Both the position numbers and the translations under genes were made by a program. Shown piece after piece: positions 1 to 33,202 of a stretch of DNA of 33,202 nt. This stretch comes from Bacteroidota bacterium (GTDB lineage Bacteria; Bacteroidota; Bacteroidia; Bacteroidales; JACABE01), in contig JACABE010000026.1 of assembly GCA_013377005.1 (NCBI GenBank), positions 25,937-59,138 of the forward strand. Direction: 5' to 3'. The stretch's first letter is position 1. Each line of letters begins with the position of its first letter. The notes beneath the pieces are model-generated. The model searched no databases and was not told the origin of the DNA. It saw only the letters and a list, made by a program, of their open reading frames with translations.

Positions 1-103
1 CATAAATCCAGTAAAAACTAAATTTTGGTTTCTTCTGCATATTAAAGAGACCCTTTTTATCAGGGGGAGTATTTTTTTCTTGTTTATCTTTTTCGTTTTC
101 CAT
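1..103 (-). CDS. ftsH: FtsH ATP-dependent zinc metalloprotease, N-terminal tip only (partial at window edge)
   Basis: Reading leftwards from an ATG at 101-103, the frame stays open to the window edge and gives 34 residues starting MENEKDKQEK, with KKPKFSFYWIY just before the edge. A short charged, lysine-rich head followed by KPKFSFYWIY at the first membrane segment is the pattern I know from Bacteroidota FtsH, and ftsH lying directly after rsfS is a common gene order in the phylum. FtsH is a membrane-anchored AAA+ protease that degrades membrane and regulatory proteins. Only 25 bp separate it from the rsfS stop, so the two are probably cotranscribed. Neither the AAA nor the zinc-protease domain is in the window, so the call rests on this short N-terminus plus position. 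Confidence 0.72.
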   Translation of the reverse strand, partial: MENEKDKQEKNTPPDKKGLFNMQKKPKFSFYWIY

Positions 104-128
104 TTAACTTATTATTTCAATAGCTTTT

Positions 129-506
129 TTAATCAATATCTTCAATAATTTTTATATCAGCATCCGACCAAAGTTTTTCTAACTGATAAAAAGAACGTGC
201 TTCTTTTTGAAATATGTGTACAACAATATCAAAATAGTCGAGCAAAATCCATTCTGAATTAATAAAACCTTCTTTAAAACGTGGAGTAGCTCCAATTGCT
301 TTTCTAACTTCTTCTTGAACAGAATCTGCAATAGCTTCGGTTTGAGTACGTGAAGTTCCATTGCAAACAATAAAATAATCGAACATACTGTTATGAACAT
401 TTGCAAGGTTCATTACTGTAATGTCTTTCCCCTTTTTTTCTTGTATTCCTTTTACAATAATATCAGCTAACATAGCCGAAGTTGAATTAATTTTCTTTTT
501 TACCAT
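129..506 (-). CDS. rsfS: Ribosomal silencing factor RsfS (Iojap/YbeB family)
   Basis: RsfS binds ribosomal protein uL14 on the 50S subunit and blocks subunit joining when nutrients are scarce. The protein shows the family core: FDYFIVCNGTS, then AIADSVQEEVRKAIG, then EGFINSEWILLDYFDIVVHIF and FYQLEKLWSDA near the end. With the ATG at 504-506 it is 125 aa, close to the usual 105-125. An upstream in-frame TTG at 528-530 would add eight residues, but that TTG is the end of a TAATTTTG promoter box (528-535), so it should lie upstream of the transcript start. The gene is divergent from birA and 25 bp upstream of ftsH, with which it probably forms an operon. Family assignment is firm; the start is inferred. 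Confidence 0.93.
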   Translation of the reverse strand: MVKKKINSTSAMLADIIVKGIQEKKGKDITVMNLANVHNSMFDYFIVCNGTSRTQTEAIADSVQEEVRKAIGATPRFKEGFINSEWILLDYFDIVVHIFQKEARSFYQLEKLWSDADIKIIEDID

Positions 507-14218: not shown

Positions 14219-17200
14219 TTAACTATTATCGCCTATCCAATCATCCACCGATTGTAATAAAGTTTTAACGTCCAATGGTTTGCATAAATATGCTTTACTA
14301 CCTGCTTTCATCAATTTTTCAATCTGATGCGACATTGCATCTGCACTTATAATTATTACCGGAATTGATTTTGTTTTTTCTTCAAGCTGAAGAAGTTTTA
14401 GTACTTCTGCACCGTCAATATCAGGAAGGTTAATATCTAGAAAAATCAAATCAGGCATGTATTCCATTGCCAATTCTACAGCCATTTTCCCATTCTTATT
14501 TGTAATCAGACGAATATTGGGGCGTTGTGAATTAAGTATCTGTTCCATGAGTTCAATATTAGATGCATTGTCTTCAATGTAAAGTATGCATCCTGACTGT
14601 TGAACGTGATTTGTATCAATAATATTGAAATCATTCATATTATCAGTGGTTTCCAGTTGGCTTTTACATTGCTGGAGTTCAATCCAGAAAGTACTTCCTT
14701 TTCCAACTTCACTGTCAATTCCAATAAAACCATTCATAGCATCCATAAGCTTTTTAACAACAGCCAAACCCAGTCCGCTTCCTTCAGTTTCTGTCTTTTC
14801 TGCACCAATTCTTTCAAAAGGTTTAAAAAGTTTAGAAATATTTTCCTGCGAAATTCCAATACCGGTATCTTTTATAGATATCCTAACATATTCTAAGCCA
14901 TCTGAAATCCTTGCATTGCTTTCACATTCAATACTGATAGAACCATTTTTAGTATTATATTTTACAGCATTGTTCAATAAATTAAATAATACCTGATTTA
15001 AACGTTGACGATCAGAGAAAACAAAAAGTTGATCATTCGGAGAAATAAAGAGTTTAAGATTCAGATGATTTTCTCTGATAATTGGTTCCATTATATCAGT
15101 TATATCACGAATAATTGATGATAGCTGTATTGGTTCAAGCGAAATTGAGAATTCTCCTGATTCAATACGCGAAATATCAAGCACTTCATTGATAAGACTG
15201 AGTAAATGTTTACCACTCCGCAATATATGACTAACTCCTTTCTTTTGGATGGGCAAAAGTTCACCCATATCCAGTAATTGAGTAAAACCCAATATAGAAT
15301 TCAATGGAGTACGTAATTCGTGACTCATACGTGAAAGAAATTCACTTTTGGCTTGATTTGCATGCTCTGCTTCGCTTCTGGCTCTGTTGATTTCCTTTTC
15401 AGCAAGTTTATTTTCGGTAATATCCCTAAAAGACCAAATACGACCAAAAGGTTTTCCATCTTCCCCTTTCACTGGGGCTGAATACCTATCCAATATGATT
15501 CCGTTATTGAGTTCTATTTCATCTCGTCTAGTTACTTCTTCATTTTCATAAAGATAAATCACTTTTTTAAGAAAATCATCGGGGTATTTGCATAAACTTA
15601 CAACATGCTTTAATAAGGCAGCATCATTTTCATCTTCCAAAATATTTAGAGGGACATTAAATATTTCAATGATTCTTTGATTTATTAACAAGCGTTTTTG
15701 ATTTTTATTGATCACCAATATGCCATCAAGCGTAGCATTCTTCTGTGCTTCAAGTAAAGCCATTTTTGATTGCAAAGCCTCTTCCATTTGCTTTCTTTTG
15801 GTGATATCAACCATAACTGTAAACAAACATAAATCGTTACCTATGTATATTTTATCAGCAGAAAACAATCCTGTTAAAACTGAACCATCTTTTTTCTTAA
15901 CTTCAATTTCAACCTCTCTAACCTGAATTTTATTATTCAGGAATTCAATTAATGTTTTGCGTATTTTTTTATCAGTAAAAAGTTTAAGTTCAGTCGAGGA
16001 CTTGCCAATTACTTCTTCTTTTGTAAAACCCAGAGTGCTGAGGAAAAGATCATTTACATCAATATATGATTCATTTTCAAAATTGGAAATAGCCATAAGG
16101 GCAGTATTGGATTGAAAGGCTTTGAAAAATTTTTCTTCAGATAATTTAATTTTTGACACATCCTTACTTACACCGAAAATTACAGGTTTTCCATCCCAAT
16201 AGCCTGGTTTTACTCTGGTTTCAACAGGAATATATTCATTGGATTTTGTAATCAATGGAACAGGACAAAAATCAGCAGTACCTGCTAACATTTCACCAAC
16301 AATTCTGCCTGCTTCAGCCCTCCTTTCCTCCGGATGAACCATAAGAACTGATTGATCAAACAACTCTTCTTTTGTATATCCAAGTCGTTGATTTACAGTT
16401 ATATTAGTATGTATAACATTACCTTTTTCATCCAAAACAAAAAGAAAGTCATCTATGGTATTAAAAAAGGTTTCATAATTCTGTCGGGTTTGATTCAGAA
16501 TAGTTTCTGCTTGCTTTTCGGATGTAATATCCCAATTGGTACCAATAAGCTTTAATGCTTTTCCGTTACTATCCCTTTCAACAATAGCAAGTGCTCTGAT
16601 ATTATGAATACTTGAATCAGGCCATATTACCCTGAATTCGATATCAAATTCTTTTTCACCAGCTATCGCTTTTTGAATGGCTTCATCGCCTTTTATCTTA
16701 TCTTCAGGATGTAAACCCACAAGCCATGTCTCATAAGCACCAATAAAATTTTCTTTTTTGATGCCATAAAGCGCAAACATCTGATCATCCCATACAAGAA
16801 TATTATTAACGATATCCAGATCCCAAACGCCTACGCCTCCGGCTTTGGTTGCAAGTGTCAGGCGGGTAGTTATTTCTTTAAGTTCATTCTCAGTCTTTTT
16901 ACGTTCAGTAATATCAACAAAAGTAACTACAGCACCTTCTATTTTTCCATTAATAAAAACTGGAAAAGACCAATACTCAGCAGGGAAACAACTTCCATCT
17001 GCCCGCCATACAACTTCATCGTCTACATGCGAACCTTTCTCCTCAATAAAAGCTTTAAAAATCCTGCAATCATGTACATCAAAACTACTACCATCTGCAT
17101 GTGCATGATGTATCAAGTCATGCATATTCTTCCCTAATAATTGTTCTGAACTTTCATAGCCCAGCAATTGATGACAAGCTGAATTTGAAAATATACAATT

Positions 17201-18364
17201 TCCGTTCATATCCAGTCCGTATATTGCCTCAGCAGTGGAATTAATTAAAATTTTAAAACGTTCTTCTCTTCCTTTGAGCTCTGAGGTTAATTGATCTGCA
17301 ATCTGTTGCGCCATTTGCCTAGTAGTGTATAATGATAAAGATAAAGAATACAATAATAAACTGATAAAAACACAGGCAGCGAAAAATGAAATAACTTCCA
17401 TGTGTGTATTATTATAAGCTTTATTTGATTTTGTAAAAAGTAATATCCATTTTTTACCGTTAAATTCTATCGGTATTTTGATCGTAAAGGTCGAATCATC
17501 ATTGTTATTAATTGAATCATTTTTCTGAGAATCAAGTAATATGGATTTAGTAGAAATACTATCATCAAATATCTGTAAATGAATCCGTTCTTTATTTAAC
17601 AAATCCCAACGACCTAATATTCCTATCATTAAATCATTCATACGATAAGGACTGTATACCCAACCTTTGATAGCCAGTCGACGTTGTTCAATTGTATTCA
17701 CAGGCATGCCATTAGAATAAACAGGTACATACATCAATGTACCAATCTGAACATCTTTGTTAGATTCCTGAACTAAAATTACTTTTCCACTCAACATTGC
17801 AACATCTTCATCTCTGGATTTTTCCATCGCAGTTCTTCTGGTTTTATCAGAAAACATATCGTAACCGAAAGCCTTTAGATTTCTTCCTGCAAATGGCTCA
17901 AGATAAATGATAGATGTATATAACTCCCTATCACCTGCAGGTTTTACGGTATAATCAGGGAAGCCTTGCTGACGAATGCTTTGGATATGCTGTTGTAGTT
18001 GATTTTTAGGAATTATCACAGTATAGCCCAAGCCTAGTATTCCGGGTAAGTTTTTTTCAATCTTTGATCTTTCATTAAATACTTTCCAATCATTACGGCT
18101 AATGGAATCTGAAGCCTCAAAAAATGCAGACCCGGTTCTTAAAAGCTGTGCATGCGCATGAAGCCGGGTTGATATTTTATTTGTAATTTCATTACAGACT
18201 GAGGTAAATTCTACTTTAAGCTCTGTCGATACCTGACGATGAATGTAAAATGCTACAACAAAGCTAACAATCAGTCCTGAAATTAAAATCAGTATTGCTT
18301 TTCGCCTGTTTTCTCTGTTAATTTCAGAAAGCGAGAACAGATGTTTTAAGTTGTTTATTTTCAT
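14219..18364 (-). CDS. Membrane-bound hybrid histidine kinase, CHASE-5xPAS-HisKA-HATPase-REC
   Basis: 1381 aa. Two membrane segments (about 22-42 and 323-346) bracket a periplasmic CHASE domain (about 50-310) with its landmarks EPFAGRNLKAFGYDM (156-170) and SGKVILVQE (192-200). CHASE domains sense small extracellular ligands. Five PAS domains follow at about 368-487, 500-615, 628-737, 745-856 and 870-985, most ending in the DIT-x-x-K/R cap. HisKA carries SRMSHELRTPLNS (phospho-His1015). The ATPase has NLLNNAVKYN (1128-1137), DTGIGIS (1166-1172) and EGSGLGL (1194-1200). The receiver (about 1257-1378) has D1310 and K1362. The start is the ATG just before a lysine-rich cytoplasmic head. The kinase core and receiver closely resemble those of the next gene, which indicates duplication. 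No output domain; the partner is unknown. Confidence 0.93.
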   Translation of the reverse strand: MKINNLKHLFSLSEINRENRRKAILILISGLIVSFVVAFYIHRQVSTELKVEFTSVCNEITNKISTRLHAHAQLLRTGSAFFEASDSISRNDWKVFNERSKIEKNLPGILGLGYTVIIPKNQLQQHIQSIRQQGFPDYTVKPAGDRELYTSIIYLEPFAGRNLKAFGYDMFSDKTRRTAMEKSRDEDVAMLSGKVILVQESNKDVQIGTLMYVPVYSNGMPVNTIEQRRLAIKGWVYSPYRMNDLMIGILGRWDLLNKERIHLQIFDDSISTKSILLDSQKNDSINNNDDSTFTIKIPIEFNGKKWILLFTKSNKAYNNTHMEVISFFAACVFISLLLYSLSLSLYTTRQMAQQIADQLTSELKGREERFKILINSTAEAIYGLDMNGNCIFSNSACHQLLGYESSEQLLGKNMHDLIHHAHADGSSFDVHDCRIFKAFIEEKGSHVDDEVVWRADGSCFPAEYWSFPVFINGKIEGAVVTFVDITERKKTENELKEITTRLTLATKAGGVGVWDLDIVNNILVWDDQMFALYGIKKENFIGAYETWLVGLHPEDKIKGDEAIQKAIAGEKEFDIEFRVIWPDSSIHNIRALAIVERDSNGKALKLIGTNWDITSEKQAETILNQTRQNYETFFNTIDDFLFVLDEKGNVIHTNITVNQRLGYTKEELFDQSVLMVHPEERRAEAGRIVGEMLAGTADFCPVPLITKSNEYIPVETRVKPGYWDGKPVIFGVSKDVSKIKLSEEKFFKAFQSNTALMAISNFENESYIDVNDLFLSTLGFTKEEVIGKSSTELKLFTDKKIRKTLIEFLNNKIQVREVEIEVKKKDGSVLTGLFSADKIYIGNDLCLFTVMVDITKRKQMEEALQSKMALLEAQKNATLDGILVINKNQKRLLINQRIIEIFNVPLNILEDENDAALLKHVVSLCKYPDDFLKKVIYLYENEEVTRRDEIELNNGIILDRYSAPVKGEDGKPFGRIWSFRDITENKLAEKEINRARSEAEHANQAKSEFLSRMSHELRTPLNSILGFTQLLDMGELLPIQKKGVSHILRSGKHLLSLINEVLDISRIESGEFSISLEPIQLSSIIRDITDIMEPIIRENHLNLKLFISPNDQLFVFSDRQRLNQVLFNLLNNAVKYNTKNGSISIECESNARISDGLEYVRISIKDTGIGISQENISKLFKPFERIGAEKTETEGSGLGLAVVKKLMDAMNGFIGIDSEVGKGSTFWIELQQCKSQLETTDNMNDFNIIDTNHVQQSGCILYIEDNASNIELMEQILNSQRPNIRLITNKNGKMAVELAMEYMPDLIFLDINLPDIDGAEVLKLLQLEEKTKSIPVIIISADAMSHQIEKLMKAGSKAYLCKPLDVKTLLQSVDDWIGDNS

Positions 18365-18539
18365 GTGTTATTATTTTTAAAATTATTTAAGTGCCACATG
18401 GAATACGCCATATAACATCATTCTCGGTTTGTATGAATATTTTACTTATGGCTATTTCATATTATAAATACTTCTTAGATTAAAACTTATAAATTATTTA
18501 TCATACCGAAACCATAGAATGTTTATTTTTATTCTATTC

Positions 18540-21500
18540 CTATTTTTTATTATCTATCCATTTATCTACTACATCCAAAAGAGTATTAACATCCAATGGT
18601 TTACATAAATAGTCTTTACTTCCAGCTTTTTTTAACTGCTCAATCTGAAGAGGCATGACATCTGCACTGATAATTACTACTGGAATATCTTTGGTTCTTT
18701 CATCATTTTGCAAAAGTTGTAAAACATCCTTGCAATGAATATCAGGCAAATTGAGATCCAGTAGAATAAAAGCCGGCTTATATAAAATCGCCATTTCAAG
18801 CGCCTTCTTCCCATTTTTATTTGCAATCAAACGAATAGCCGGACGATGCGAAGTAAGAATTTGATTCACCAACTCAATATTGGATACATTGTCTTCAATA
18901 TACAAAATACAATGCTTTTCTGCTGTTTTGTCAATAGAGGTATCCATAAGATTTTTATTTTGAGTGGTGAGTTCTCTTATTTTTTCTAAGAACTCAGACT
19001 GTAGTTTTTCTTTCTCTTCGCTTTGCAAGAGCATTTCTAAATTTGCAATTACAAGTTCAGCTGCAAGTTTTGCTTTCTCATCATTTTGGATGTCAATAGT
19101 TTTATAAGCTAGCAACAGTTCTGCAGCCAGTTTAACTTCCTCTTTGTTTTTAAGAACAAGGTCTCTGTTTGCTATCAATAGCTCTGCAGCCCGCTTTGCT
19201 TTTTCAATTTTCTGAGATTCTATTTCAGTATTGGCTAGTTTAAGAGCAGTTGTCTGATCTGTAATTTCCTGGCTTTGCAATGCATTTTCTTTTTTGACAA
19301 TTCCCAAAGCAGTTGTTAGTTTATAGTTCTCAATATTTTTTTTTTTAGTATCCAAAGAATTTTCAATAATGGGTAATTCAATCCAAAAACAACTACCTTC
19401 TCCAAATTTACTTTCTATACCAATACTTCCTTTCATGGCATCTATCAGCTTTTTCACAACTGAAAGGCCTAGACCTGTTCCCTCTACTTCTGTTTTTTCA
19501 GCACCAATTCTTTCAAAAGGCAGGAATATTTTATCCAGATTTTCAGAAGGAATACCTGAACCAGTATCAGTTATTAAAATTCTGAGATTTGAAATACCAT
19601 CATTATTTGCAGGTATTTCCTTGCAATCTACACTTACAGATCCTCCTATTTGATTATATTTTACAGCATTGTTCAACAAATTTATCAACACCTGTTTTAA
19701 TCTCTGACTATCAGCATATACACAAACAAGATTATTTGCAAAATCTGAAAACTGAATGCAGATATTTTTCTTTGCAGCAATAGGCTGAATAATATCCAAA
19801 CAATCGGATACAAGGCCTCTTACTTGAATAGCTTCCATTAAAAGAGACAAATAGCCGGCTTCAATACGTGAGATATCAAGTACCTCATTAATCATGTCCA
19901 GTAAATGTTTTCCGCTTTGTAATATATGATGGACGCCTTTTTTTTGTTTTACATCCAACTGACCCATTTCAAGTAACTGAGCAAATCCAAGTATTGAATT
20001 CATAGGAGTTCTAAGTTCATGACTCATACGCGAAAGAAATTCGCTTTTGGCCAGATTGGCTTTCTCTGCTTCATCTCTTGCTTCAAGAATTTTTTCTTCT
20101 GCCAGTTTGCGTTCAGTAATATCCATTGAAATACCTCCGAGTATCGGTTCTTTGCCATCTATAGAAATAAGAAACTTTTGGGTTTCAAAGTCGTGCAGTT
20201 TGCCATCGAGCTGAAGCAAACTTTCATCAATTTTATGATAACCCAACTTCATAGATTCAATATCATCCTTTGTAAGTTTTTCACCAAATTCACCCGGAAA
20301 GACTTCGAGCATCGTCTTACCTACCCATTTTGAAGCTCCAAAAGCTATATCCATGTATTTATTAACAAATAGCGTTTTCCCATTTTGATCTTTAAGAAAT
20401 GCCACAACAGGAAGATAATCCATAAAGGAAGAAAATCTTGCTTCACTTTCCTTAAGTGCATTCTCTGCTTTCTTACGTTCAGTTATATCATGATAATTAA
20501 GCAATATACCATTAATAATCGGATCATTTACCAGATTAGTAGCTGTGAGTTCTATTAATTTATAAGTTTCATCTTTACATTTGTATCTGTATTCAAGTAT
20601 TACAGAAAAATTATCTTTTTCGAGCAACTTTATATATTCATTTTTAACATACTCCATATCATCGGGATGGATAGTAAACCAACCCTCTTTTCCTACGAGA
20701 TCTTCAGGTTTCCATCCAAAATATCTTTCAATGTTCGGACTTTTATACTTCATAATACCATCAACCCCCATTATACCTATAACATCCGAAATATTGGATA
20801 TCATTGAAGCATGCTTTATTTCACTATCAATAATAGCTTTTTCAGCTTTTTTTCGTTCTGTGAGATCCATATTGGAACCTGTTACACGAATTGCTTTTCC
20901 TTCTATATCTCTGCTAATAAATCCACGTGAAAGAACCGGGACATAGTGTCCCTTTTTATGCAATAAGCGAAATTCAGCTTCGTAGCTATCCATATTGCTA
21001 TTTAATGCATTACTTAAAATAGCGTTTATATTTTCAATATCATCAGAATGCATTAGATTTCTCCATAGTCTGCTATCCGATGGAATTTCTTCTGGCAAAT
21101 ACCCAATTTGTTCCCACCATTTTAACGAATAAAAAAGATTATCGGTAAGCAAATTCCAATCCCATGGTGCATCGTTTGAACCTTTAATTACTAAATTTAA
21201 CTGCTCTCTACTTTCTTTTAAAGCTTCTTCGGATTGTTTGCGTTGACTAATATCTTCAAATATATAAAACCGTCCGTAATACTCATCTTTGCTTCCTCGT
21301 ATTTGAGTAGAAAAACGTCTTACTGTTCTGTTTTCGGTAAAAGCAATTTCATCTTCAATTACTATCCGGTTCGATTCTTCCTGCAAGGGTTTGCACGATT
21401 CGGCAAAAGCGGGAATATCTGTCAGCACAGGTAAACAATACGGAATAATATCATTATTCTTCAGTTCTCCTCTTTGCATTTGATCAGCAATTTTTTCAAT

Positions 21501-24500
21501 TCCCCATATTTGACAAAAACGTTGATTGAAATATAAAATATCATCAGTACGATTATCAACTACCAAAAATCCCAGAGGTGAAGAATTAGACATTAATTGT
21601 AACAAAGTCTGGTTCCATTGAAGAGCTTCTTGTGTTAACTTACGCTCTTCGATTTCATTCTTTAAACTGATATTTATTTCTGCCAGTTGAGTAGTTCTTT
21701 CTTTAATTTTATGTTCAAGATTGGCATTGAGATTATTGATTTCAGCTTCAGCCTGTTTGCGTTTTGTGATATCTTCCTGTACTGCAAGAAAATTCATGAT
21801 CTTACCTGATGAATTAAAAATAGGTGAAAGCGAAGCAGATGTCCATATCAACTCGCCATTTTTCCTTTTATTTCGAAATTCTCCATACCAAGCATTTCCT
21901 GACTCTATGGTTTCCCAGAGTATACGATATTCATCTTTAGACTTTGCACCTGATTTTAAAATACGTGCATTTTGCCCCAGCAATTCCTCCAAAGAATAAC
22001 CTGTCATTTCAGATGCTTTTGAATTTGCATATTCAAAATTTCCATCCAAGTCGGTAATGCAAATCATCACTGGGCTTTGCTCAACTGCATACGAAAGTTT
22101 TTTCAGTTCTTCTTCAGCCCCGATACGCTCGGTAATATCCCAGGCCATATCTGACAATAAAGAAACAATTTCAACATCTTTATCTGTATAATCAATTGGC
22201 TTATTTCCGACTCCAACAATAGCTACTACTTTTTCATTCCGGAATACAGGAACCACCAATTCGCGAACTACTTCTGCATGTCCATCTGGTAATCCTTTAC
22301 GATGAGATAGGCTTAAATAATCATTATGAATAACTGCTTTTTGTTCACGGACACAATCTACCCAAACCCCTGCTTTATCAATATCATAATGTTCTCCCTT
22401 GCTTTCTGCACTGCATATATTTTTCAATGTATTAGATGACCAACACTGCAAGGTTAACGACAGTTGGTCATTGTTGACACAGTGAAAAAACCCAATCTGA
22501 CTATTGCATATTTTTTCAAGTTCATCTAATAGTTTTTGTTGCAGTTCAATGCGGGAATGAGATTGTGCATATTCGCTTAATATAAGCCTTGTTTGAATAA
22601 TTTGTTCTGATTGCTTGCGTTCACTTATATCTCTGGTTACAAAAACCAAATGAAATGCTTGCCCATGTTCATCTTTTATAAATTCACCATTTACTTCAAT
22701 ATCAAATGTAGTTCCATCTTTTTTTATGCCTAAATATTCTTCAGAACCCCATAAACCATTATACATTGACAAGAGATTAGCTAAAACTCTTTCTTGATCA
22801 CTGTTGTGAATAAATTCTATTAATGATTTATTGATAATCTCTTCTTCTGTATCATACCCAAACATCTCAAAAGTCTTTGGCGACGACATAATAATTTTGC
22901 CTTCCAGATCGGTAATGGTAATAACATCAGGCGAAGCATTAATAATAGCACGGTACATGGCTTCACTTTCCTGCAATGCACTTTCTGCTTTCTTACGATC
23001 AGTTATATCTCTAAAAATACCATAAGCACCCACATAATTATCATTTTCATCAAATTTGGGTGAAGCTGATACATAGATATATTTAAGATTTCCTTTTTTT
23101 GTTTTAATTTTAAGTTCATAAGAATTTGTATTCCTGTTTTTCCTTTTTTGAGTCTGATTTTTAATTAATTCAACTTCATCTGGATGTAAATAATCAAACA
23201 ATGAAGTTCCCACAAGTTCATTTTCTTCTGTTTCAAATATGGTTGCAGAAGCAATATTAGCAAATTCAAATTCTTCATTAATATTTATAAAGCCAATACC
23301 TTCGACTTGAGATTGGATTATTTCCTTGAATTTCCTTTCACTTTCTTCAACTAATCTTTTGGTTTTAATTAATTCATTTTCTGCATACTTCCTGTTAGTT
23401 ATATCGCGCATACTGCCGATTATTTTTGTAGGATTACCCTCTGTATCATAAAAAAGACCAGATGTAATTGCTATTGGAACAATTGAGCCATCTTTGTTAT
23501 AAAATGATAATTCATAGTCAGTTACTTTACCATATTTTTTAATATCTGTAAAAAATCTGTTTCTGTCTTCCGGATCTGAATAAAAATCAGCAATTGATGT
23601 TCCGATGAGCTCCTCTCTGTTATATTGTCCTTTTGAAATAAATTCAATAGAAGGGCTTATTTCTAACAACTTACCTTCAAAAGTAGCTTCATAATAAACA
23701 TCCAGTATATTTTCAAATATATTACGGTATTTTTCCTCGCTTATTCTTAGTTTATCTTCTGCCTGTTTTCGACTGGTAATATCATTTATAATAGACAATA
23801 TGTAAGGTTTATTATCCAAATAAATAATAGATGCTGAAAAAATAGCATTAATAATATCTCCATTCTTAATCCTAAACTTTTGCTCTAATCCTCTTATTTC
23901 TTTTCCCGCTTTTAGCTGAATGGTTATTTTATTTCTTTCCTCAATGTCAACCCATAAATTAAGTCCGATAGAAGAATCGGACAAGGCTTCTTCTTTGGAA
24001 TATCCACTCAAATAAAGAAAGGCATCATTTACTTCAATAAATTTACCATCTTCAGGGTGTGTAATAAGAATGGCATAAGGTGACATAAGGAAGGCTTTTG
24101 AATATTTTTCTTCGCTTAAGCTTAATGCTATTTCAGCCTGTTTCCTTTCGGTTATATCGGTTAGTAATCCCGAAGCACCTATCATTTTACCATTTTCAAT
24201 GATGGCATTGGTGGATGATCTTACCCAGCATATTTTGCCATTTTTATTAACATATCTGTATTCGAGATAAGAGTAATCCCTTTTATAAAGTTTTGAAATC
24301 CTTTCATAAATCATTGCTTTATCTTCATCGTAAATATAAGTAAGAATGTTGGTTCCAATTACTTCTTCGGCTGTATAACCCAGTACTCGGCTAACAGATG
24401 GACTTACATATTTTATAATACCTTCGTTTGTAATTTCATAAACAACATCATTGATGGATTCAACCATATTACGATAGTTTTCTTCACTTATTTTAAGTTT

Positions 24501-25793
24501 TTCTTCTGCATTTTTACTTTCGGTAATATCATAAAGTGTACCCGAAGCACCTTTAAAGTTCCCATCTTTAAAAATAGCATTGCTCGAAAAACGAATCCAT
24601 TTGCTGATTCCTGATTTATTTTTAATTTTATAATCATGTACTATTTCATTTTTTTCTTTGAGTAATTGAAGTCGTGTAGATAAATATTCAGCACTTTCGC
24701 CTACAAAATCAATGAATTTTTTACCAATTATTTCTTGTCCAGAATATCCAAGTATAGTTTTAATGGATGGACTTATGAATTTAACAATTCCCTGATAATC
24801 TATTTCATAAATTGCTTCACTAATAGATTCAACCAGATTGCGATAAGTCTCTTCACTTTTCTTAAGTTTTTCTTCAGTTATTTTTTTATCTGTAATATCA
24901 TGAACCAATGAATATAAAAGCTTAGTATCACCAAATTGAATAGGACCTGAATTTACTTCAACATTTCTTATTTCGCCACTAGCCAAACGATGATTAAAAT
25001 AAAAATGTTTGCGTTTTTCGTCTTTAGCCTTTTGCATTTCTGCAATAATTTCCTCTTTGTTCAATGTATTTATTTCGGAAATATTCTTACAACAGATTAC
25101 CTGATGGGACCAACCATAATATTTGCAGGCTGCCGGATTTGCATCTTTAATTGCTCCGTTTTCAGGATCTATTAATAGCATAACAGCATGATTGTTGTGA
25201 AATAAAGACTTGTATCTTTCTTCACTCTGAAACATATTTCCCAGAGGTTCTAAACCTACAATCATTTCAATTGCAGTTAGCAGACATTGCCCTCCATCTT
25301 TGCTTAGAATTCCTTCAAGGTAAATATTTTTTAGCGAATTATCGGGTGTCAAAAGGTTAAGTGTACAATATTCTCTGGTTTTAAGTGTAAAAATATTTTT
25401 TAAAAAAAGCTGGAAGTTAGCCTTAGTATCTGTAGAAACAAATAAATTAAAATACTTATTTATCAGATGTGGACGTTTTTCTCCAAGCATTTCAGCAGCA
25501 CTTAAATTTAACTCTAAGATTTCACTATTGTTTGAAAGTGTAAAGTATGCTGAAGGTGCATAATCATACAAATGAGAATATTTTGTAAAATCAACTTCTG
25601 CTTGCTCTTTTGCCTGCATAAGTTTTTCATTTTGCATTTCCAGTTCAATCTGAAATTCATGAAGTTCATGTATAAGTTTTATTGTTTCAGATTCAGTAAA
25701 TGGAGTATTCTTGTTTAATTCCTTGTTTTTCAAAAATTCTTCTGCTTTTTGGCGAAGAAGGTTTGCATCTTTAGATTGAGCAGCTTTTTTCAT
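18540..25793 (-). CDS. Giant soluble hybrid histidine kinase, 13 PAS domains + GAF + HisKA-HATPase + coiled-coil repeats + REC
   Basis: 2417 aa with no signal peptide or membrane segment, so a cytoplasmic multi-input sensor. I count PAS domains at about 73-175, 192-300, 316-424, 439-548, 562-673, 687-799, 819-932, 945-1057, 1233-1343, 1395-1516, 1530-1645, 1658-1771 and 1783-1893. A GAF domain sits at about 1080-1222 (HRKGLPDGHAEVVRELVVPV). Most PAS units end in DITERK-type caps and signalling helices. HisKA has SRMSHELRTPMNS (phospho-His1925). The ATPase has NLLNNAVKYN (2038-2047), DTGSGIP (2076-2082) and EGTGLGL (2104-2110). Five 21-residue coiled-coil units (2181-2285) lie between the ATPase and the receiver (about 2294-2413, D2346, K2398). 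In the receiver the usual Gly after NLPDI is replaced (DIHCKD). Exact PAS limits are approximate; the first is weak. No frameshift is seen. Confidence 0.9.
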   Translation of the reverse strand: MKKAAQSKDANLLRQKAEEFLKNKELNKNTPFTESETIKLIHELHEFQIELEMQNEKLMQAKEQAEVDFTKYSHLYDYAPSAYFTLSNNSEILELNLSAAEMLGEKRPHLINKYFNLFVSTDTKANFQLFLKNIFTLKTREYCTLNLLTPDNSLKNIYLEGILSKDGGQCLLTAIEMIVGLEPLGNMFQSEERYKSLFHNNHAVMLLIDPENGAIKDANPAACKYYGWSHQVICCKNISEINTLNKEEIIAEMQKAKDEKRKHFYFNHRLASGEIRNVEVNSGPIQFGDTKLLYSLVHDITDKKITEEKLKKSEETYRNLVESISEAIYEIDYQGIVKFISPSIKTILGYSGQEIIGKKFIDFVGESAEYLSTRLQLLKEKNEIVHDYKIKNKSGISKWIRFSSNAIFKDGNFKGASGTLYDITESKNAEEKLKISEENYRNMVESINDVVYEITNEGIIKYVSPSVSRVLGYTAEEVIGTNILTYIYDEDKAMIYERISKLYKRDYSYLEYRYVNKNGKICWVRSSTNAIIENGKMIGASGLLTDITERKQAEIALSLSEEKYSKAFLMSPYAILITHPEDGKFIEVNDAFLYLSGYSKEEALSDSSIGLNLWVDIEERNKITIQLKAGKEIRGLEQKFRIKNGDIINAIFSASIIYLDNKPYILSIINDITSRKQAEDKLRISEEKYRNIFENILDVYYEATFEGKLLEISPSIEFISKGQYNREELIGTSIADFYSDPEDRNRFFTDIKKYGKVTDYELSFYNKDGSIVPIAITSGLFYDTEGNPTKIIGSMRDITNRKYAENELIKTKRLVEESERKFKEIIQSQVEGIGFININEEFEFANIASATIFETEENELVGTSLFDYLHPDEVELIKNQTQKRKNRNTNSYELKIKTKKGNLKYIYVSASPKFDENDNYVGAYGIFRDITDRKKAESALQESEAMYRAIINASPDVITITDLEGKIIMSSPKTFEMFGYDTEEEIINKSLIEFIHNSDQERVLANLLSMYNGLWGSEEYLGIKKDGTTFDIEVNGEFIKDEHGQAFHLVFVTRDISERKQSEQIIQTRLILSEYAQSHSRIELQQKLLDELEKICNSQIGFFHCVNNDQLSLTLQCWSSNTLKNICSAESKGEHYDIDKAGVWVDCVREQKAVIHNDYLSLSHRKGLPDGHAEVVRELVVPVFRNEKVVAIVGVGNKPIDYTDKDVEIVSLLSDMAWDITERIGAEEELKKLSYAVEQSPVMICITDLDGNFEYANSKASEMTGYSLEELLGQNARILKSGAKSKDEYRILWETIESGNAWYGEFRNKRKNGELIWTSASLSPIFNSSGKIMNFLAVQEDITKRKQAEAEINNLNANLEHKIKERTTQLAEINISLKNEIEERKLTQEALQWNQTLLQLMSNSSPLGFLVVDNRTDDILYFNQRFCQIWGIEKIADQMQRGELKNNDIIPYCLPVLTDIPAFAESCKPLQEESNRIVIEDEIAFTENRTVRRFSTQIRGSKDEYYGRFYIFEDISQRKQSEEALKESREQLNLVIKGSNDAPWDWNLLTDNLFYSLKWWEQIGYLPEEIPSDSRLWRNLMHSDDIENINAILSNALNSNMDSYEAEFRLLHKKGHYVPVLSRGFISRDIEGKAIRVTGSNMDLTERKKAEKAIIDSEIKHASMISNISDVIGIMGVDGIMKYKSPNIERYFGWKPEDLVGKEGWFTIHPDDMEYVKNEYIKLLEKDNFSVILEYRYKCKDETYKLIELTATNLVNDPIINGILLNYHDITERKKAENALKESEARFSSFMDYLPVVAFLKDQNGKTLFVNKYMDIAFGASKWVGKTMLEVFPGEFGEKLTKDDIESMKLGYHKIDESLLQLDGKLHDFETQKFLISIDGKEPILGGISMDITERKLAEEKILEARDEAEKANLAKSEFLSRMSHELRTPMNSILGFAQLLEMGQLDVKQKKGVHHILQSGKHLLDMINEVLDISRIEAGYLSLLMEAIQVRGLVSDCLDIIQPIAAKKNICIQFSDFANNLVCVYADSQRLKQVLINLLNNAVKYNQIGGSVSVDCKEIPANNDGISNLRILITDTGSGIPSENLDKIFLPFERIGAEKTEVEGTGLGLSVVKKLIDAMKGSIGIESKFGEGSCFWIELPIIENSLDTKKKNIENYKLTTALGIVKKENALQSQEITDQTTALKLANTEIESQKIEKAKRAAELLIANRDLVLKNKEEVKLAAELLLAYKTIDIQNDEKAKLAAELVIANLEMLLQSEEKEKLQSEFLEKIRELTTQNKNLMDTSIDKTAEKHCILYIEDNVSNIELVNQILTSHRPAIRLIANKNGKKALEMAILYKPAFILLDLNLPDIHCKDVLQLLQNDERTKDIPVVIISADVMPLQIEQLKKAGSKDYLCKPLDVNTLLDVVDKWIDNKK
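18939..19253 (-). repeat. Five tandem 63-bp (21-residue) coiled-coil units
   Basis: Residues 2181-2285 of the giant kinase divide exactly into five 21-residue units, that is three heptads each. The clearest core is AAELLIANRDLVLKNKEEVKL, then AAELLLAY..., AAELVIAN.... The first and last units have diverged. The units predict a parallel coiled coil linking the ATPase domain to the receiver. Confidence 0.85.
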
Positions 25794-28424: not shown

Positions 28425-29468
28425 TTATCTTATTAATGTTATAGTTCCCTTTTTAATACCTTCTAAATTATCCTTTTCATTAGTTTTTGAATTATATTCA
28501 AGCATCCATATATAAACTCCTTCTGATGCCTGTTTACCTTTATAGTTACCATCCCATCCATTTTGGCTATTTTTTGATTCAAAGACTAATTCTCCCCAAC
28601 GATTATAAACATATAAGTAAAATTGTTTTAATTCGGGAGAGGTTGTTATTTTAAATTCATCGTTTAATCCGTCTCCATTTGGCGTAAAGCTATTAGGAAC
28701 CCAAATGTTTACCTGATTATTGATAAAAATTAGTTTTCCAATAGAATCCGAACAACCAAATTGATTGGTTGCGACTAAGTATATATAAGAATTTGTTAGG
28801 TTATTTAGAACGAAAGATGTATTTTGTTGTGTTGAAATTAAGTTAAACATATCATCATACCAATTATAACTTATTACAGGAGTTCCCGTGTATGAAAGAA
28901 ATACGGTTTCACCATACGATGGCATATCAGGAGAATATAAAAATTCCAATACAGGCTTTTGATGAACTGTTAAAGTATGATTTAAAGTATCTGTAGTACA
29001 TTGATTAGATGCAACAAGGGTGTAATTAGTTGTTGAAATTGGCATTACAAAAATTGAATCGTTTACAGAACCTGTGTTCCAATGATAATTTGTTCCATTA
29101 GTTGCAAAAATTAGTGCGATTTCTCCTTCACAAATTTCAGAAGTGCCTTGAATTGAAACAGTAGAAAAAGGTAAAACAATAACTTCTGACTTCATCGTGT
29201 CTCCAACACAACCATTAGTTGTTGTTTCGATAACAGAAATAGGATAGGTACCAGCATTCACCCCCCATTGAATATGAATACTATCGTTTGATTGTGAACC
29301 TATTATTAATCCTCCTGTTACATTCCAATTGAACATAGAGGCAGAGTCGCCTACAACTTTATAATTAGAAAGTTGCCCAATACATACGGTATCTATAATC
29401 TGACTTTTTCCTTGAAGAAAACAAAGATTTAGTACTAATAAAAATAATATAACTTTTGTTTTGTACAT
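28425..29468 (-). CDS. Secreted Ig/PKD-like protein with T9SS type B (gliding-motility) C-terminal sorting domain
   Basis: 347 aa. Residues 1-22 are a signal peptide (KVILFLLVLNLCFLQGKSQ). Domain 1 (24-100) begins DTVCIGQLSNYKV and ends GCVGD...VIVLP, with Cys29 and Cys87; it is clearly related to the N-terminal domain of the gene upstream. Two more Ig-like domains follow (about 101-175 and 176-252). The last 94 residues (254-347) are the gliding-motility-associated C-terminal domain: WVPNSFTPNGDGLNDEF, YNRWGELVFES, GWDGNYKGKQASEGVYIW. In this family the domain directs export by the type IX system and attachment to the cell surface. It starts 16 bp after the stop of the upstream gene and is the last gene of the operon. 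Confidence 0.9.
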   Translation of the reverse strand: MYKTKVILFLLVLNLCFLQGKSQIIDTVCIGQLSNYKVVGDSASMFNWNVTGGLIIGSQSNDSIHIQWGVNAGTYPISVIETTTNGCVGDTMKSEVIVLPFSTVSIQGTSEICEGEIALIFATNGTNYHWNTGSVNDSIFVMPISTTNYTLVASNQCTTDTLNHTLTVHQKPVLEFLYSPDMPSYGETVFLSYTGTPVISYNWYDDMFNLISTQQNTSFVLNNLTNSYIYLVATNQFGCSDSIGKLIFINNQVNIWVPNSFTPNGDGLNDEFKITTSPELKQFYLYVYNRWGELVFESKNSQNGWDGNYKGKQASEGVYIWMLEYNSKTNEKDNLEGIKKGTITLIR

Positions 29469-29484
29469 TATTAGCGTTTTGTTA

Positions 29485-31404
29485 TTAATAATGAGTGATT
29501 CCTGATGTAATTGGTTTTGAATGAACTGTTACCATAGTTGTACCTGTTAAATTCGGACAAGAACCTGTTACATTCGTAGCATTAAGTGTATAAATACCAG
29601 ACATAATGGGTAAAGCAGTAGATGAAACATTCGGGTTTTGCGATGTTGAAGTAAATCCGTTTGGTCCAGTCCAGTTGTAAGTTGCTCCTGCAACATTTGA
29701 AGTTAATGATAATTGGCTTCCCTGACAAACAGGACCATTGTTTGATAATGTAAGGGTTGGTCCTTGTGTTAATGTATATGTTATTGTATCTACAATATTC
29801 TGGCAAGGCAAATTTCCGTAAGCCTTTAAAATGAATTTTATACTTCCTGCTATAATATCAGCAGTTGTTATTGTATAAATAGGATGAAGAACGCTTGAAT
29901 TACTGAATCCACCAGTACCAGTAGTTGACCATGATAACGTATTGTAATTTGAAGCAGATGAGCCAGAAAGTGTAATTTGAGTGCCATTAATAACACATAT
30001 TGTTTGATTTATCCCTGCTTCAACTACTGGCAATTGAATAATTATCAATCTTAGTGAGTCTTTTGCAATACTACAAGGTATGTTACCAGATGCTGTTAAA
30101 TATAATTTAACAAACCCAGCAGTAATATCGGTAACACTTGGTGTGTAAATAGGATTAATGATACCTGTATTTGAAAAAGTGCCTGTACCACTTGTACTCC
30201 AAGTCAAATTTGAATAGTTAGATGCCGAAGCATTAGAAATTTGATAAGTTGAATTTGAGCATATTGTATCATTATTTCCTACTTCTACTAACGGAGAAGG
30301 AATAATATGTAATATTTTAGTGCTTATAGCACTATCGCAAGGATAAATACCCAAAGCCTTTAGTTTCAGCAAAACTTGTCCCACAATTTTATCAGCAGTA
30401 CTTGGTGTATAGATTGTTAATAAAGAGTTTGCAGACGAAAATGTACCACTACCTGAAGTTGACCAAATTAAGGAAGAAGCATTATTTTGTGTTGCCAATG
30501 TTGTAGTATAGGTTGAATTTGCACAAATAGAATCATTGTTTCCTGCAAAAACAGTTGGAATTGGTGAGAAATGAAGAGTTAATGAATCAACAATACTTAA
30601 ACAGGGAGCATTCCCATTTACTATTAGTCTTAATATAACCTGACCAGCAGCCAAATCATTAACACTTGGAGTATATATTGTATGTAGCTGATTTGCATTA
30701 CCAAAGCCACCAGTTCCAGAAGTAGTCCATAGTAAATTATTGTAATTATTAGCAGTTGCATTAATTGTAGAAAAGTTTATACTTGCACATATTGTAGTAT
30801 CACTTCCTGCATCTACAGTTGGTTTAGTAATAAGCGTTAAAATAATTGTTGATGAAACTTGTGAGCAATTTGCTTGTCCTGTTGCAATTATCGTTAAAGT
30901 AACACTTCCTGTATTAACATCAGCTGCGCTTGGATGATAGACAGGATGTAAAATAGAAGTATTAGAAAACGTACCTGTTCCTGATGTTGACCAAAGCAGT
31001 GTATTTTGATTGGAAGCAGTTGAACCAAACAATGTATAAGAATTTGTATCGCATAAAATAGCTGCATTTCCTGCAAAAACTGTTGGTAAAGGAAGTATAG
31101 TAACAGCAATTGTTTTAGCATCTCCCTTACATCCATTAGAGTCGGTTTCAACTACTGATAAATCATAAGTTCCCTGAACATTTGTCCATATAACAGAAAT
31201 ACTATCAGTGTTTTGTCCTAAAGTTACTGTACCTCCCGAATTTGAAACCGACCAAAAATAAGTTGAATTTTGAGTACCATTCAACCAATATACATCCAAC
31301 GAACCCGCACAACGGGTTTGTGTGAGATTTTCATTTTGTCCATTTGCAACTACAGAAATAAGCAGTATTGCAAAGAATCCGGTTATTTTAAATATTGTAC
31401 GCAT
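29485..31404 (-). CDS. Secreted repeat protein with five 88-90-residue Ig-like units and a KPITSGITHY tail; no sorting domain
   Basis: 639 aa from the ATG at 31402-31404. An upstream ATG at 31414-31416 would put an acidic residue before the signal peptide, so I prefer the inner one. Residues 1-22 are a signal peptide (MRTIFKITGFFAILLISVV). Domain 1 (23-105, Cys32/Cys92) is homologous to domain 1 of the next gene. Five tandem units (107-548) follow, each with WSTSGTGTFSN and YTPSxxD signatures and two cysteines. The last domain (549-628) has the NWTGPNGF signature and SGIYTLNA, and the protein ends SKPITSGITHY. Export is expected from the signal peptide, but the type A or B T9SS domain that such proteins normally carry is absent. 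The upstream protein ends the same way. No known function beyond a likely adhesive or structural surface role. Confidence 0.85.
   Translation of the reverse strand: MRTIFKITGFFAILLISVVANGQNENLTQTRCAGSLDVYWLNGTQNSTYFWSVSNSGGTVTLGQNTDSISVIWTNVQGTYDLSVVETDSNGCKGDAKTIAVTILPLPTVFAGNAAILCDTNSYTLFGSTASNQNTLLWSTSGTGTFSNTSILHPVYHPSAADVNTGSVTLTIIATGQANCSQVSSTIILTLITKPTVDAGSDTTICASINFSTINATANNYNNLLWTTSGTGGFGNANQLHTIYTPSVNDLAAGQVILRLIVNGNAPCLSIVDSLTLHFSPIPTVFAGNNDSICANSTYTTTLATQNNASSLIWSTSGSGTFSSANSLLTIYTPSTADKIVGQVLLKLKALGIYPCDSAISTKILHIIPSPLVEVGNNDTICSNSTYQISNASASNYSNLTWSTSGTGTFSNTGIINPIYTPSVTDITAGFVKLYLTASGNIPCSIAKDSLRLIIIQLPVVEAGINQTICVINGTQITLSGSSASNYNTLSWSTTGTGGFSNSSVLHPIYTITTADIIAGSIKFILKAYGNLPCQNIVDTITYTLTQGPTLTLSNNGPVCQGSQLSLTSNVAGATYNWTGPNGFTSTSQNPNVSSTALPIMSGIYTLNATNVTGSCPNLTGTTMVTVHSKPITSGITHY
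29761..31086 (-). repeat. Five tandem Ig-like protein repeats (88, 88, 88, 88, 90 residues)
   Basis: The units start at Pro residues 107, 195, 283, 371 and 459 of the repeat protein. Shared positions are xAGxxxxIC (Cys12), LLWSTSGTGTFSN (about 30-42), IYTPSxxD (49-56), AGxVxLxL and Cys74 (Cys76 in the fifth). The repeats are diverged at DNA level, so they are not a recent expansion. Confidence 0.9.
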
Positions 31405-31428
31405 ATCTATATACATTTAATAATATAG

Positions 31429-33202
31429 TTAATAATGGATAATATTGGGTGTTATGGGTTTTGGATTTACAGTGAGTTGAAGATCTGAAGGCATGCTTTC
31501 ACAGCCACCTGCTCTTGCTTTTACTGTATATACACCACTCATTAAAGTAGTTGCATTGTTTATTTGCAAGTCATAGTTTGGAGCTGACAATATCTGATAA
31601 AACCCATTGGGACCATTCCAAATCAGTTGAATCGTGTTGCTGTAAGAATTTGTTGGCTGAATAGTAACAGATGTTCCAACACACATTATAACGTTAGCAA
31701 CCAAAGGTTGCGAAGGCGTATTAATACTGCTGATATTGATAGAATCATTGTTTTTACAACCATTGCTTCCTGTAATCTGAACATTCACATGCGAAGAATC
31801 CGTAACAGTAATGCTTTGCGTAATTGCTCCCGTTGACCAAAGATAAGCATTCATTCCGGATGTTGCAGTTATAGTGAATGTCTGACCGGAACATATTATC
31901 GTATCATTTCCCAAAAAAAGAAAAGGTAGCGCATTTACTAAAAAGCTGCTCGCAGCTGAAGTGTTGAAACAATTGTTGAAATTCCCTTTCGCAGAGATAT
32001 TATGACTTCCGATGGACAATCCACTTATTTTTAATATTCCGTTTTGTCCCTGATTCCCCAGAGAAACACCATCAATAAAATATTCATAGGTATTAGCACC
32101 AACAGCTGTTACAGTTAAAGTATCATTCTGGCATATTGTATTTCCTAATAATGTTATGGAAACTAAAGGTGCATTAGGATCTGAAATACTTACAGAAGAA
32201 ACCGAAGAACAACCAATAGAATCGTAAACTGTTACCTGATAAGAACCAGCTGATAAACTATCCAATAAATTTCCATTTACAATTGGTGTTTGATTCCAAC
32301 TAAAATGATAGGCAGGATTTGATAAATACGGAAAGCCACCGCTGGCAGTTGCAATAATATAACCATTACTTAATCCGCAATCTGTCGGATTAGTTGGATT
32401 AACAGTAATTTGTGGCAGTGTGCTAACTCTAATTGATACAGAATCATTACCAATGCAACCATTAAAACCTTTTACATAGCCAGTGTATTGTGTGGTTGAC
32501 AAAGGCGAAACCATTGGATGTTGCAGGGTAGAATCATTCATTCCCTGAGAAGTATTCCAATTATAAGAATAGGGGAGACTGCCTCCGCTTGCAGTAAGAT
32601 GCAAAGGAATAGTTGCACCCGGGCATATTAATGTATCTGATAATGCTGTTACTACTGGTTTAGGTTTTACAGTAACATTAATAGTGTCTGAATATACACA
32701 AGCCACACCATAACTTGCCTGTACCCAATAAGTGCCGGGATTGATGATGTTAAAAGAAGTTCCTGTAGCTCCTGTTGACCACAAATAAGAAGCCGCTCCG
32801 TTAAAATTAATTGTTTGCAGGGCTTCACCATAACATATTGCAGTATCAGGACCTAAACCATACACATAGCCGGGAGAATTGGTAAAAATCCATCCTAAAT
32901 TATTACCTAAATCTACACTGTATGTACCTGCATAATAAGTAGCTCCTCCCATAGCATTTATATCCCTTACTTCCAGGAAATCTCCGGAAACCATGCTGCC
33001 GGGTTTTTGAATATGTGAAAGAACGCCCTGCTGTGTTGAACGCAATATCGTTGTAAAACAATTATTTCCCCTGACATTTAATTCTTTATTAACATGCGTA
33101 GTATCATTTGCCCCAAAAAGATAAACATGCCCAGCAGCCAGTGAAAGTGTATCAAAAGTATTAAAGTTAGAGATAGTACTGTTTCCGTTAAGCATACAAA
33201 AT
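31429..33202 (-). CDS. Large secreted repeat protein, C-terminal part (5' end outside window), with SprB-type repeat and KPITPNIIHY tail
   Basis: The frame remains open through the right edge of the window (..FC before the Met at 33193-33195), so the visible 588 residues from that Met are the end of a longer protein. In order: a beta-rich stretch with GDFLEVRDINAMGGATYYAG and DLGNNLGWIF (about 70-104), typical before Ig repeats in Bacteroidota surface proteins; Ig-like domains at about 111-180 and 181-261; one SprB-like repeat (about 262-340, SGGFPY...SAGSYQVTVYDSIGC); further Ig-like domains (341-424, 425-491); a GPNGF domain (about 492-577); and the tail PKPITPNIIHY. There is no T9SS sorting domain. 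It is followed 24 bp later by the next gene. Role is probably adhesion or surface structure. Confidence 0.82.
   Translation of the reverse strand, partial: FCMLNGNSTISNFNTFDTLSLAAGHVYLFGANDTTHVNKELNVRGNNCFTTILRSTQQGVLSHIQKPGSMVSGDFLEVRDINAMGGATYYAGTYSVDLGNNLGWIFTNSPGYVYGLGPDTAICYGEALQTINFNGAASYLWSTGATGTSFNIINPGTYWVQASYGVACVYSDTINVTVKPKPVVTALSDTLICPGATIPLHLTASGGSLPYSYNWNTSQGMNDSTLQHPMVSPLSTTQYTGYVKGFNGCIGNDSVSIRVSTLPQITVNPTNPTDCGLSNGYIIATASGGFPYLSNPAYHFSWNQTPIVNGNLLDSLSAGSYQVTVYDSIGCSSVSSVSISDPNAPLVSITLLGNTICQNDTLTVTAVGANTYEYFIDGVSLGNQGQNGILKISGLSIGSHNISAKGNFNNCFNTSAASSFLVNALPFLFLGNDTIICSGQTFTITATSGMNAYLWSTGAITQSITVTDSSHVNVQITGSNGCKNNDSINISSINTPSQPLVANVIMCVGTSVTIQPTNSYSNTIQLIWNGPNGFYQILSAPNYDLQINNATTLMSGVYTVKARAGGCESMPSDLQLTVNPKPITPNIIHY

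Follow-up and report, generated by a model that had tools for sequence, protein, structure and literature searches.

Type V fimbriae of the Bacteroidales (FimA, Mfa1-5) are surface fibres of Bacteroidota with a tip, a shaft and an anchor, and the available excerpts of two reports describe the removal of the first strand of their subunits, which leaves a void that another subunit is expected to fill (PMC5789003, PMC5954841). Chaperone-usher pili also rely on donor strand complementation between immunoglobulin-like (Ig-like) subunits; in the excerpts of one of these reports, one subunit donates its N-terminal strand to another, and a chaperone and an usher take part (PMC5789003). Here we describe a three-gene operon with likenesses to both, found in a 33,202-nucleotide stretch of DNA (the window) from a Bacteroidota bacterium of the order Bacteroidales (assembly GCA_013377005.1, contig JACABE010000026.1, positions 25,937 to 59,138). 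Its genes appear to encode the parts of a surface chain, in which a C-terminal tail (the plug) of one protein would complete an N-terminal domain (the socket) of the protein encoded next.

The operon differs from type V fimbriae, whose subunits are lipoproteins from which the Rgp protease removes the first strand, in that the gene product here never contains this strand and the anchor has a signal for the type IX secretion system (T9SS). No fimbrillin Pfam family is among the matches at E ≤ 1 for the three window proteins, and by the one feature tested, the fimbrillin domain, the system would not be a type V fimbria. Unlike in chaperone-usher pili, the donor here is a C-terminus, and no processing is needed in the model. 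A further likeness is to T9SS type B cargo with a PorP/SprF shuttle (SprB, Fjoh_3952), in that the anchor matches TIGR04131 and PorP/SprF genes are often adjacent; to our knowledge the known type B cargo are single chains, whereas the anchor described here has a socket for partners without a C-terminal sorting domain (CTD). The domains are also related to those of GhpA, grappling hook protein A of Aureispira (PDB 9flp, 9fls, 9flu-9fly, 9g8b), which is the best PDB sequence match of a socket profile (E 4.8e-24, summed over many copies), and two consecutive GhpA domains superpose on the Ig domain of a plug protein plus the socket. GhpA, however, is a single 5898-residue chain of tandem domains, and here the chain is split between strands A and B into separate proteins.

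The features of the operon, in window positions, are the following.

31429..33201, reverse strand: gene 1, the most upstream subunit seen (tip or further linker), with Ig_7 and then a plug, without a sorting domain
31432..31464, reverse strand: plug 1, PKPITPNIIHY-COOH, the terminal residues of gene 1, an ordered strand in the junction model
31417..31428, reverse strand: gap between genes 1 and 2, 12 nucleotides (nt), in frame
29485..31416, reverse strand: gene 2, the linker subunit, with signal peptide, socket, repeats, Ig_7 and plug
31336..31416, reverse strand: signal peptide of gene 2, assigned by eye, cleavage site inferred
31081..31335, reverse strand: socket of gene 2, a PKD_6-like domain without its first strand (PKD_6 profile 12-80 of 82)
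29488..29520, reverse strand: plug 2, SKPITSGITHY-COOH, the terminal residues of gene 2
28425..29468, reverse strand: gene 3, the anchor subunit, with signal peptide, socket, an Ig_7-like domain and a T9SS type B signal
29154..29402, reverse strand: socket of gene 3 (PKD_6 profile 13-73 of 82), in the tree nearest to anchor sockets
28434..28700, reverse strand: CHU_C / TIGR04131 type B sorting domain of gene 3 (TIGR04131 E 9.3e-17)

The 5′ end of gene 1 is missing, because the contig stops within the gene (the window is C19:25937-59138 and the contig ends at 59138). The initial annotation, made from the letters alone, had noted three open reading frames (ORFs), two KPITxxIxHY tails and a single type B domain, all of which were found as described, and the homology it saw between the domains that follow the signal peptides of genes 2 and 3 is borne out, the two being 40% identical. 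The TIGR04131 match at the C-terminus of gene 3 scores 61 bits against a cut-off of 35, and the type B model matches gene 3 only among the three; genes 1 and 2 give no NCBIfam match at E ≤ 1, and so no type A or B C-terminal domain. When isolated, the gene 2 socket matches PKD_6 (PF19408) at 27.1 bits, above the curated cut-off of 25, the gene 3 socket scores 16.6 bits, below it, and PKD_6 matches at E ≤ 0.01 are found in 11 of 31 sockets. The Ig-like domain that the annotation placed before both tails is real here (Ig_7) but forms no part of the tail module; we rejected Ig_7 as a component and regard its position as incidental, because other tail proteins, compared by eye, share just the tail and end in other domains.

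We consider it probable that these genes specify an ordered, non-covalent surface chain held together by donor-strand complementation of split Ig domains, with a grammar of tip, linker and anchor. The earlier proposal, of a chain held by a single exported anchor in which each protein binds with its tail to the N-terminal domain of the one encoded next, is supported, and its mechanism can be sharpened: judging from the sequences, the tail would stand for strand A, without which the N-terminal domain begins. The socket would be a PKD_6-type Ig-like domain whose chain starts past strand A once the signal peptide is removed, and the plug (P-x-P-x-T-S-x-I-x-H-x) of the protein encoded just upstream would give strand A in trans. 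In this grammar the tip has just a plug, the linker combines a socket with a plug, and the anchor joins a socket to a T9SS C-terminal signal. The chain would assemble in the periplasm once its members have been exported by Sec, and the signal of the anchor would then carry it through the SprA translocon to a shuttle at the surface; the affinity of plug for socket, assembly in the periplasm and export as a chain are what we infer.

A second operon of the same layout lies elsewhere in the same genome, on contig C12 (L047 3269-16601; G000 C12:211000-229000). Its tip is an ice-binding-like protein (PF11999, E 6e-40) that terminates in PLPPTSSIYHQ, its second protein has the N-terminal domain at its start and PLTPNTSAIWHN at its C-terminus, and its third has the N-terminal domain plus a type B-like end; further downstream, by eye, are a large ice-binding-like protein, a PorP/SprF gene and an OmpA-family gene. 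The two operons share their layout, so that all four of their tails precede such N-terminal domains. A whole-genome search with a profile of these four domains found its own four at E ≤ 2.6e-31, as befits a profile built from those same domains, and 21 other matches at E ≥ 1.4e-9.

For a broader sample, a socket was defined as a PKD_6-like N-terminal domain after a signal peptide, a plug as a C-terminal I-x-H tail, and a strict tail as I-x-H plus 0-2 terminal residues. The discovery search covered 148 relative genomes, with matches at E ≤ 1e-8 in 51; 40 regions were taken by rank of E-value, skipping G047:C60 and G022:C13 (long frames). The discovery set of 34 sockets also includes the window and L047, whose four sockets had been recognised through the tails. 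The validation search used a second profile (31 sockets). Of the 393 genomes searched in the order, 140 had matches at E ≤ 1e-11, and a further 40 regions were taken in rank order, some of them from genomes or families that the discovery set already contained. The sets together hold 80 sockets from 28 families of one order, of which 76 were chosen on domain score alone and four of the socket genes come from the window's own genome. A validation socket gene was one in which the domain starts within 75 residues at E < 1e-8 (n=46), and the upstream gene was the longest same-strand ORF within 600 nt, present for 44 of the 46.

Strict tails are far commoner before sockets, as the initial annotation would have it: in the validation set they end 27 of the 44 upstream genes and 18 of 252 other genes (Fisher p = 2.6e-15, a figure inflated by kinship, as are those for the tree and the terminal residues below, since operons of related species are not independent). 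The corresponding counts in the discovery set, window included, are 20 of 31 and 7 of 221. A scoring matrix trained on the discovery set, with a cut-off exceeded by 2% of 234 background genes without a strict tail, passes 38 of the 44 validation upstream genes; it also passes 26 of 31 in the discovery set, a count that is partly circular because 20 of these trained it. The six validation misses are L157, L168, L174, L172, L181 and L191, among which L157 has the upstream tail LNPLQIIRK, probably a variant, L168 and L174 have no upstream plug, and at L181 and L191 the ORF taken is probably spurious, with the plug gene further upstream; the five discovery misses are L108, L111, L120, L121 and L146. 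Among the 25 strict tails in the background, 24 are by eye real plug genes (chain ends or arrays) and one is a chance occurrence (L164 11258). The KPxTSxIxH tails mentioned in the annotation are real and common in one order, and its proposal needs a correction here: some tails, in arrays or at chain ends, have no adjacent socket.

Outside the order, 18 regions picked among the listed matches, mostly with shorter frames, contained on reading no gene with a signal peptide and a socket, and copies of the domain occur there only inside proteins. A script flagged two L202 genes as sockets, but these overlap one another within a giant repeat region and have no signal peptide; it also flagged two strict tails, in L196 and L201, which are due to chance. 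A single further search of genome contigs gave four loci, of which at least two were already in the set (L148 = L107, L149 = L111).

The position of the motif in its protein is nearly invariant. Across the genes of 82 regions, P..[TN][SPNT].I.H stands within 0-2 residues of the C-terminus 39 times, at 3-12 residues from it twice and nowhere else, which excludes chance; all 41 copies of the I-x-H motif thus lie at the C-terminus or very close to it, and the form with I-x-G is found six times internally and never at an end. The possibility that the tail is a module regularly found inside proteins was rejected for the regions scanned, in which there are no internal I-x-H copies.

Copies of the socket domain that lie inside proteins (deeper than residue 120, n=48) were compared with 71 sockets, using only copies whose first cysteine could be placed. 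Internal copies have a proline-rich strand such as NPRPVPTISGLSAV ahead of the first cysteine: the strand-A motif [PTSA]x1-3[IV]xG precedes it in 29 of 48 internal copies versus 4 of 71 sockets, and there is a proline at -22..-7 in 47 of 48 versus 18 of 71. In the sockets, by eye, the signal peptide plus a few residues occupies the place of strand A (in one case the start of the protein does). Sockets with a known PKD_6 range match from profile position 11-13 of 82, and in none of them does the match take in the first strand, even after joining the plug (start 11-13). On these comparisons the sockets lack the first strand of a PKD_6-type Ig-like domain. The plugs resemble that strand: a matrix trained on 40 cis strands separates 47 plugs from 448 background C-termini with an area under the curve (AUC) of 0.93, and from 375 random pieces of the same proteins with one of 0.88.

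Docking of the plug in the socket as this strand is predicted by structural models. Two junctions, that of window genes 1 and 2 and that of L133 from a different family, were modelled as read-through single chains with AlphaFold2 and 30-row alignments. In the model of genes 1-2 the predicted local distance difference test (pLDDT) is 94-97 for the socket, 92 for the plug block (91-100) and 66-78 for the upstream Ig domain, with a strand at residues 99-101 in the plug; in the L133 model the plug block has pLDDT 83 and a strand at 97-100. Alignments to solved chains start at residues 89-94, within or just before the plug, in 26 of the 50 listed for genes 1-2 and in 6 of the 50 listed for L133; the other listed alignments start further upstream and none inside the socket. 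Examples are 5dmy_A (Z 9.3, 2.0 Å, 83 residues, 93..217) and the archaeal PKD domain 1l0q_A (Z 9.0, 3.0 Å, 85 residues) for genes 1-2, and 6tqd_B (Z 8.7, 2.3 Å, 90 residues, 91..216) for L133. The two-domain unit of GhpA, 9fls_A, spans both proteins in each model (Z 8.6, 3.5 Å, 142 residues for genes 1-2; Z 9.3, 3.5 Å, 158 residues for L133). Because middling Z scores are common and only end points were compared, we rely more on the low root-mean-square deviation and on the fact that alignments start at the plug again and again. In both tethered models the tail is thus predicted as an ordered strand at which Ig-domain alignments start, in keeping with the contact that the initial annotation foresaw.

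A strict plug ends 30 of the 73 socket proteins with a complete C-terminus; among the 43 others, 31 match TIGR04131 (type B) and five TIGR04183 (type A), where one protein may match both, and the remainder include by eye variant plugs (such as SPIFNY, SPVWHK and PAIQKN) and genes interrupted by runs of N. Tips, which have a plug without a socket (n=33), include among the 30 scanned for domains (L108 10138, L164 11258 and L189 198 being left out) Ice_binding in four, LTD in four, IgGFc_binding in three, P_proprotein in two and PKD types in several.

The likeliest rival, though we think it rather unlikely, is one in which plugs fit sockets and linkers self-polymerise into long open-ended fibres with no fixed chain. 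Linkers do hold both halves, lone genes with socket and plug occur without a tip or anchor nearby (L120, L121, L168, L174), and both window plugs terminate in HY. Against it, linker and anchor sockets are largely separate in a tree of the 80 sockets, where four changes suffice for the split versus 24 in shuffles and none of 500 shuffles is as low; many single forks of this tree are weak, seven rows are ungrouped, 'anchor' denotes a complete C-terminus without a plug, and four such rows fall among the linkers (L124, L125, L108_10770, L111_5689). The last residue of the plug also differs by destination: Q ends 7 of 24 plugs into linkers versus 0 of 16 into anchors (p = 0.03), and N ends 4 of 24 versus 10 of 16 (p = 0.006), both p values being uncorrected for the two tests, from which L111_5689 (cut by a run of N) and L108 were left out. 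The split of the tree and the bias in the last residue together suggest that assembly is ordered, tip, linker and anchor recognising each other in turn.

Some operons have other layouts. At L173 2-14408, L167 1323-13500 and L171 3-7814, three or four plug proteins, one of them an IgGFc_binding protein, are arrayed ahead of one socket gene, which extends beyond the region; their ends are mostly like IKHN, IRHN and IRHQ, and they are possibly interchangeable tips. In L178, L183, L184, L185, L187, L193 and L195 the plug is extended past the usual histidine (TGPIYHIPNN... and variants) and directly precedes anchor sockets, which fall into two small groups of the tree; this is apparently a two-gene form without a linker. 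The lone proteins with socket and plug (L120 1025-2938, L121 2626-6702, L168 6521-7234, L174 6144-6785) have about 210-250 residues and come after a gene ending in CGxxxxGxW, which at L121 encodes a radical SAM protein, itself preceded by a protein with a spermidine-synthase domain; with no tip or anchor nearby, a homopolymer or another use is possible. In the operon at L157 5625-6838 the second plug, ahead of an anchor socket, is seemingly LNPLQIIRK, far from the consensus.

The genome encodes one SprA and four PorP/SprF genes. The available excerpts of published work report that type B substrates depend on PorP/SprF shuttles, with gene adjacency common and not universal (PMC12618676), and that the pore of SprA opens laterally and binds substrates in its interior (PMC10994853). 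Among our 37 anchors, 28 have a same-strand neighbour within 1 kb and nine do not, and the downstream gene is PorP/SprF in 17 of the 28. Export of the whole chain on the anchor's signal would mean, as we propose, that the proteins without a CTD ride along; alternatively, the plug proteins may exit by another route and join the chain outside.

Several observations weigh against the plug-and-socket chain or its export as a unit. The gene before each of four socket genes (L120, L121, L168, L174) encodes no plug, and in several cases a plug is found with no socket next to it. Joining plug to socket in five pairs gave no gain in PKD_6 score over a control C-terminus, the differences being under 1 bit in four pairs, with no match in the fifth. 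The matrix of cis strands is proline-rich, so composition may account for part of its AUC, and it fits best when shifted by one residue in 29 of the 47 plugs. The structural models are single-chain fusions, which tether the plug near the socket, and were judged by pLDDT, strand assignment and first and last aligned residues only. No PorP/SprF gene stands beside gene 3, the next gene encoding a lipoamide dehydrogenase, and in the excerpts of the literature available to us no description of T9SS transport of a multi-chain assembly was met.

That the tail is instead a separate signal for export or anchoring, such as a mini sorting signal with a dedicated transporter, and is unrelated to the neighbouring N-terminal domains, we consider improbable. 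It would accommodate the strictly C-terminal position of the tail in the regions scanned, the want of a known sorting signal in genes 1 and 2, and the tails without an adjacent socket. Yet the tail resembles strand A of the very domain that is without strand A in the next gene, adjoins a socket in most cases and is predicted to be an ordered strand in the two junction models. We rejected as most improbable of all the idea that the genes are breakages of one long tandem-Ig gene through stop codons, frameshifts or read-through, for which the in-frame gap between genes 1 and 2, two similarly in-frame gaps at L109 and the existence of intact tandem versions such as GhpA can be cited, because the gaps of less than 120 nt between a strict plug and the socket gene after it show no preference for any of the three frames (9/9/12) and because socket genes have by eye their own signal peptides (one of 71 begins at the domain), and the layout moreover recurs in 28 families and plugs have I-x-H where internal copies of the motif have I-x-G. 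An ancient gene fission is compatible with complementation of split Ig domains.

The arrangement was not found described in the open-licence literature searched. We see about an even chance that it represents an undescribed and widespread class of secreted assembly, in which surface proteins of one Bacteroidota order, each divided within an Ig domain, join by strand complementation in the periplasm, plug-socket recognition dictates their order, sockets are sometimes shared by several plug proteins, and the pre-assembled product leaves through the T9SS on one CTD. If so, this would be the way in which many proteins that have no known export signal, among them ice-binding and IgGFc-binding-like ones, are displayed at the surface, several plug proteins on one socket in some operons would be interchangeable tips, and it would be explained how many Bacteroidota proteins with a signal peptide and no sorting domain reach the surface; the T9SS would become an exporter of multi-subunit assemblies. 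An annotation rule of plug, socket and anchor would predict which proteins belong to one structure, with a recognition code that can be tested, and an Ig-domain pair that clicks spontaneously, with no need of a protease or chaperone, could be used as a tool for joining proteins.

Elsewhere in the window, positions 14219-25793 (reverse strand) encode two adjoining proteins, a 1381-residue hybrid histidine kinase-response regulator with CHASE and PAS domains and a 2417-residue protein that is by eye a larger multi-PAS sensor kinase, the domain scan having covered only the 1381-residue protein.

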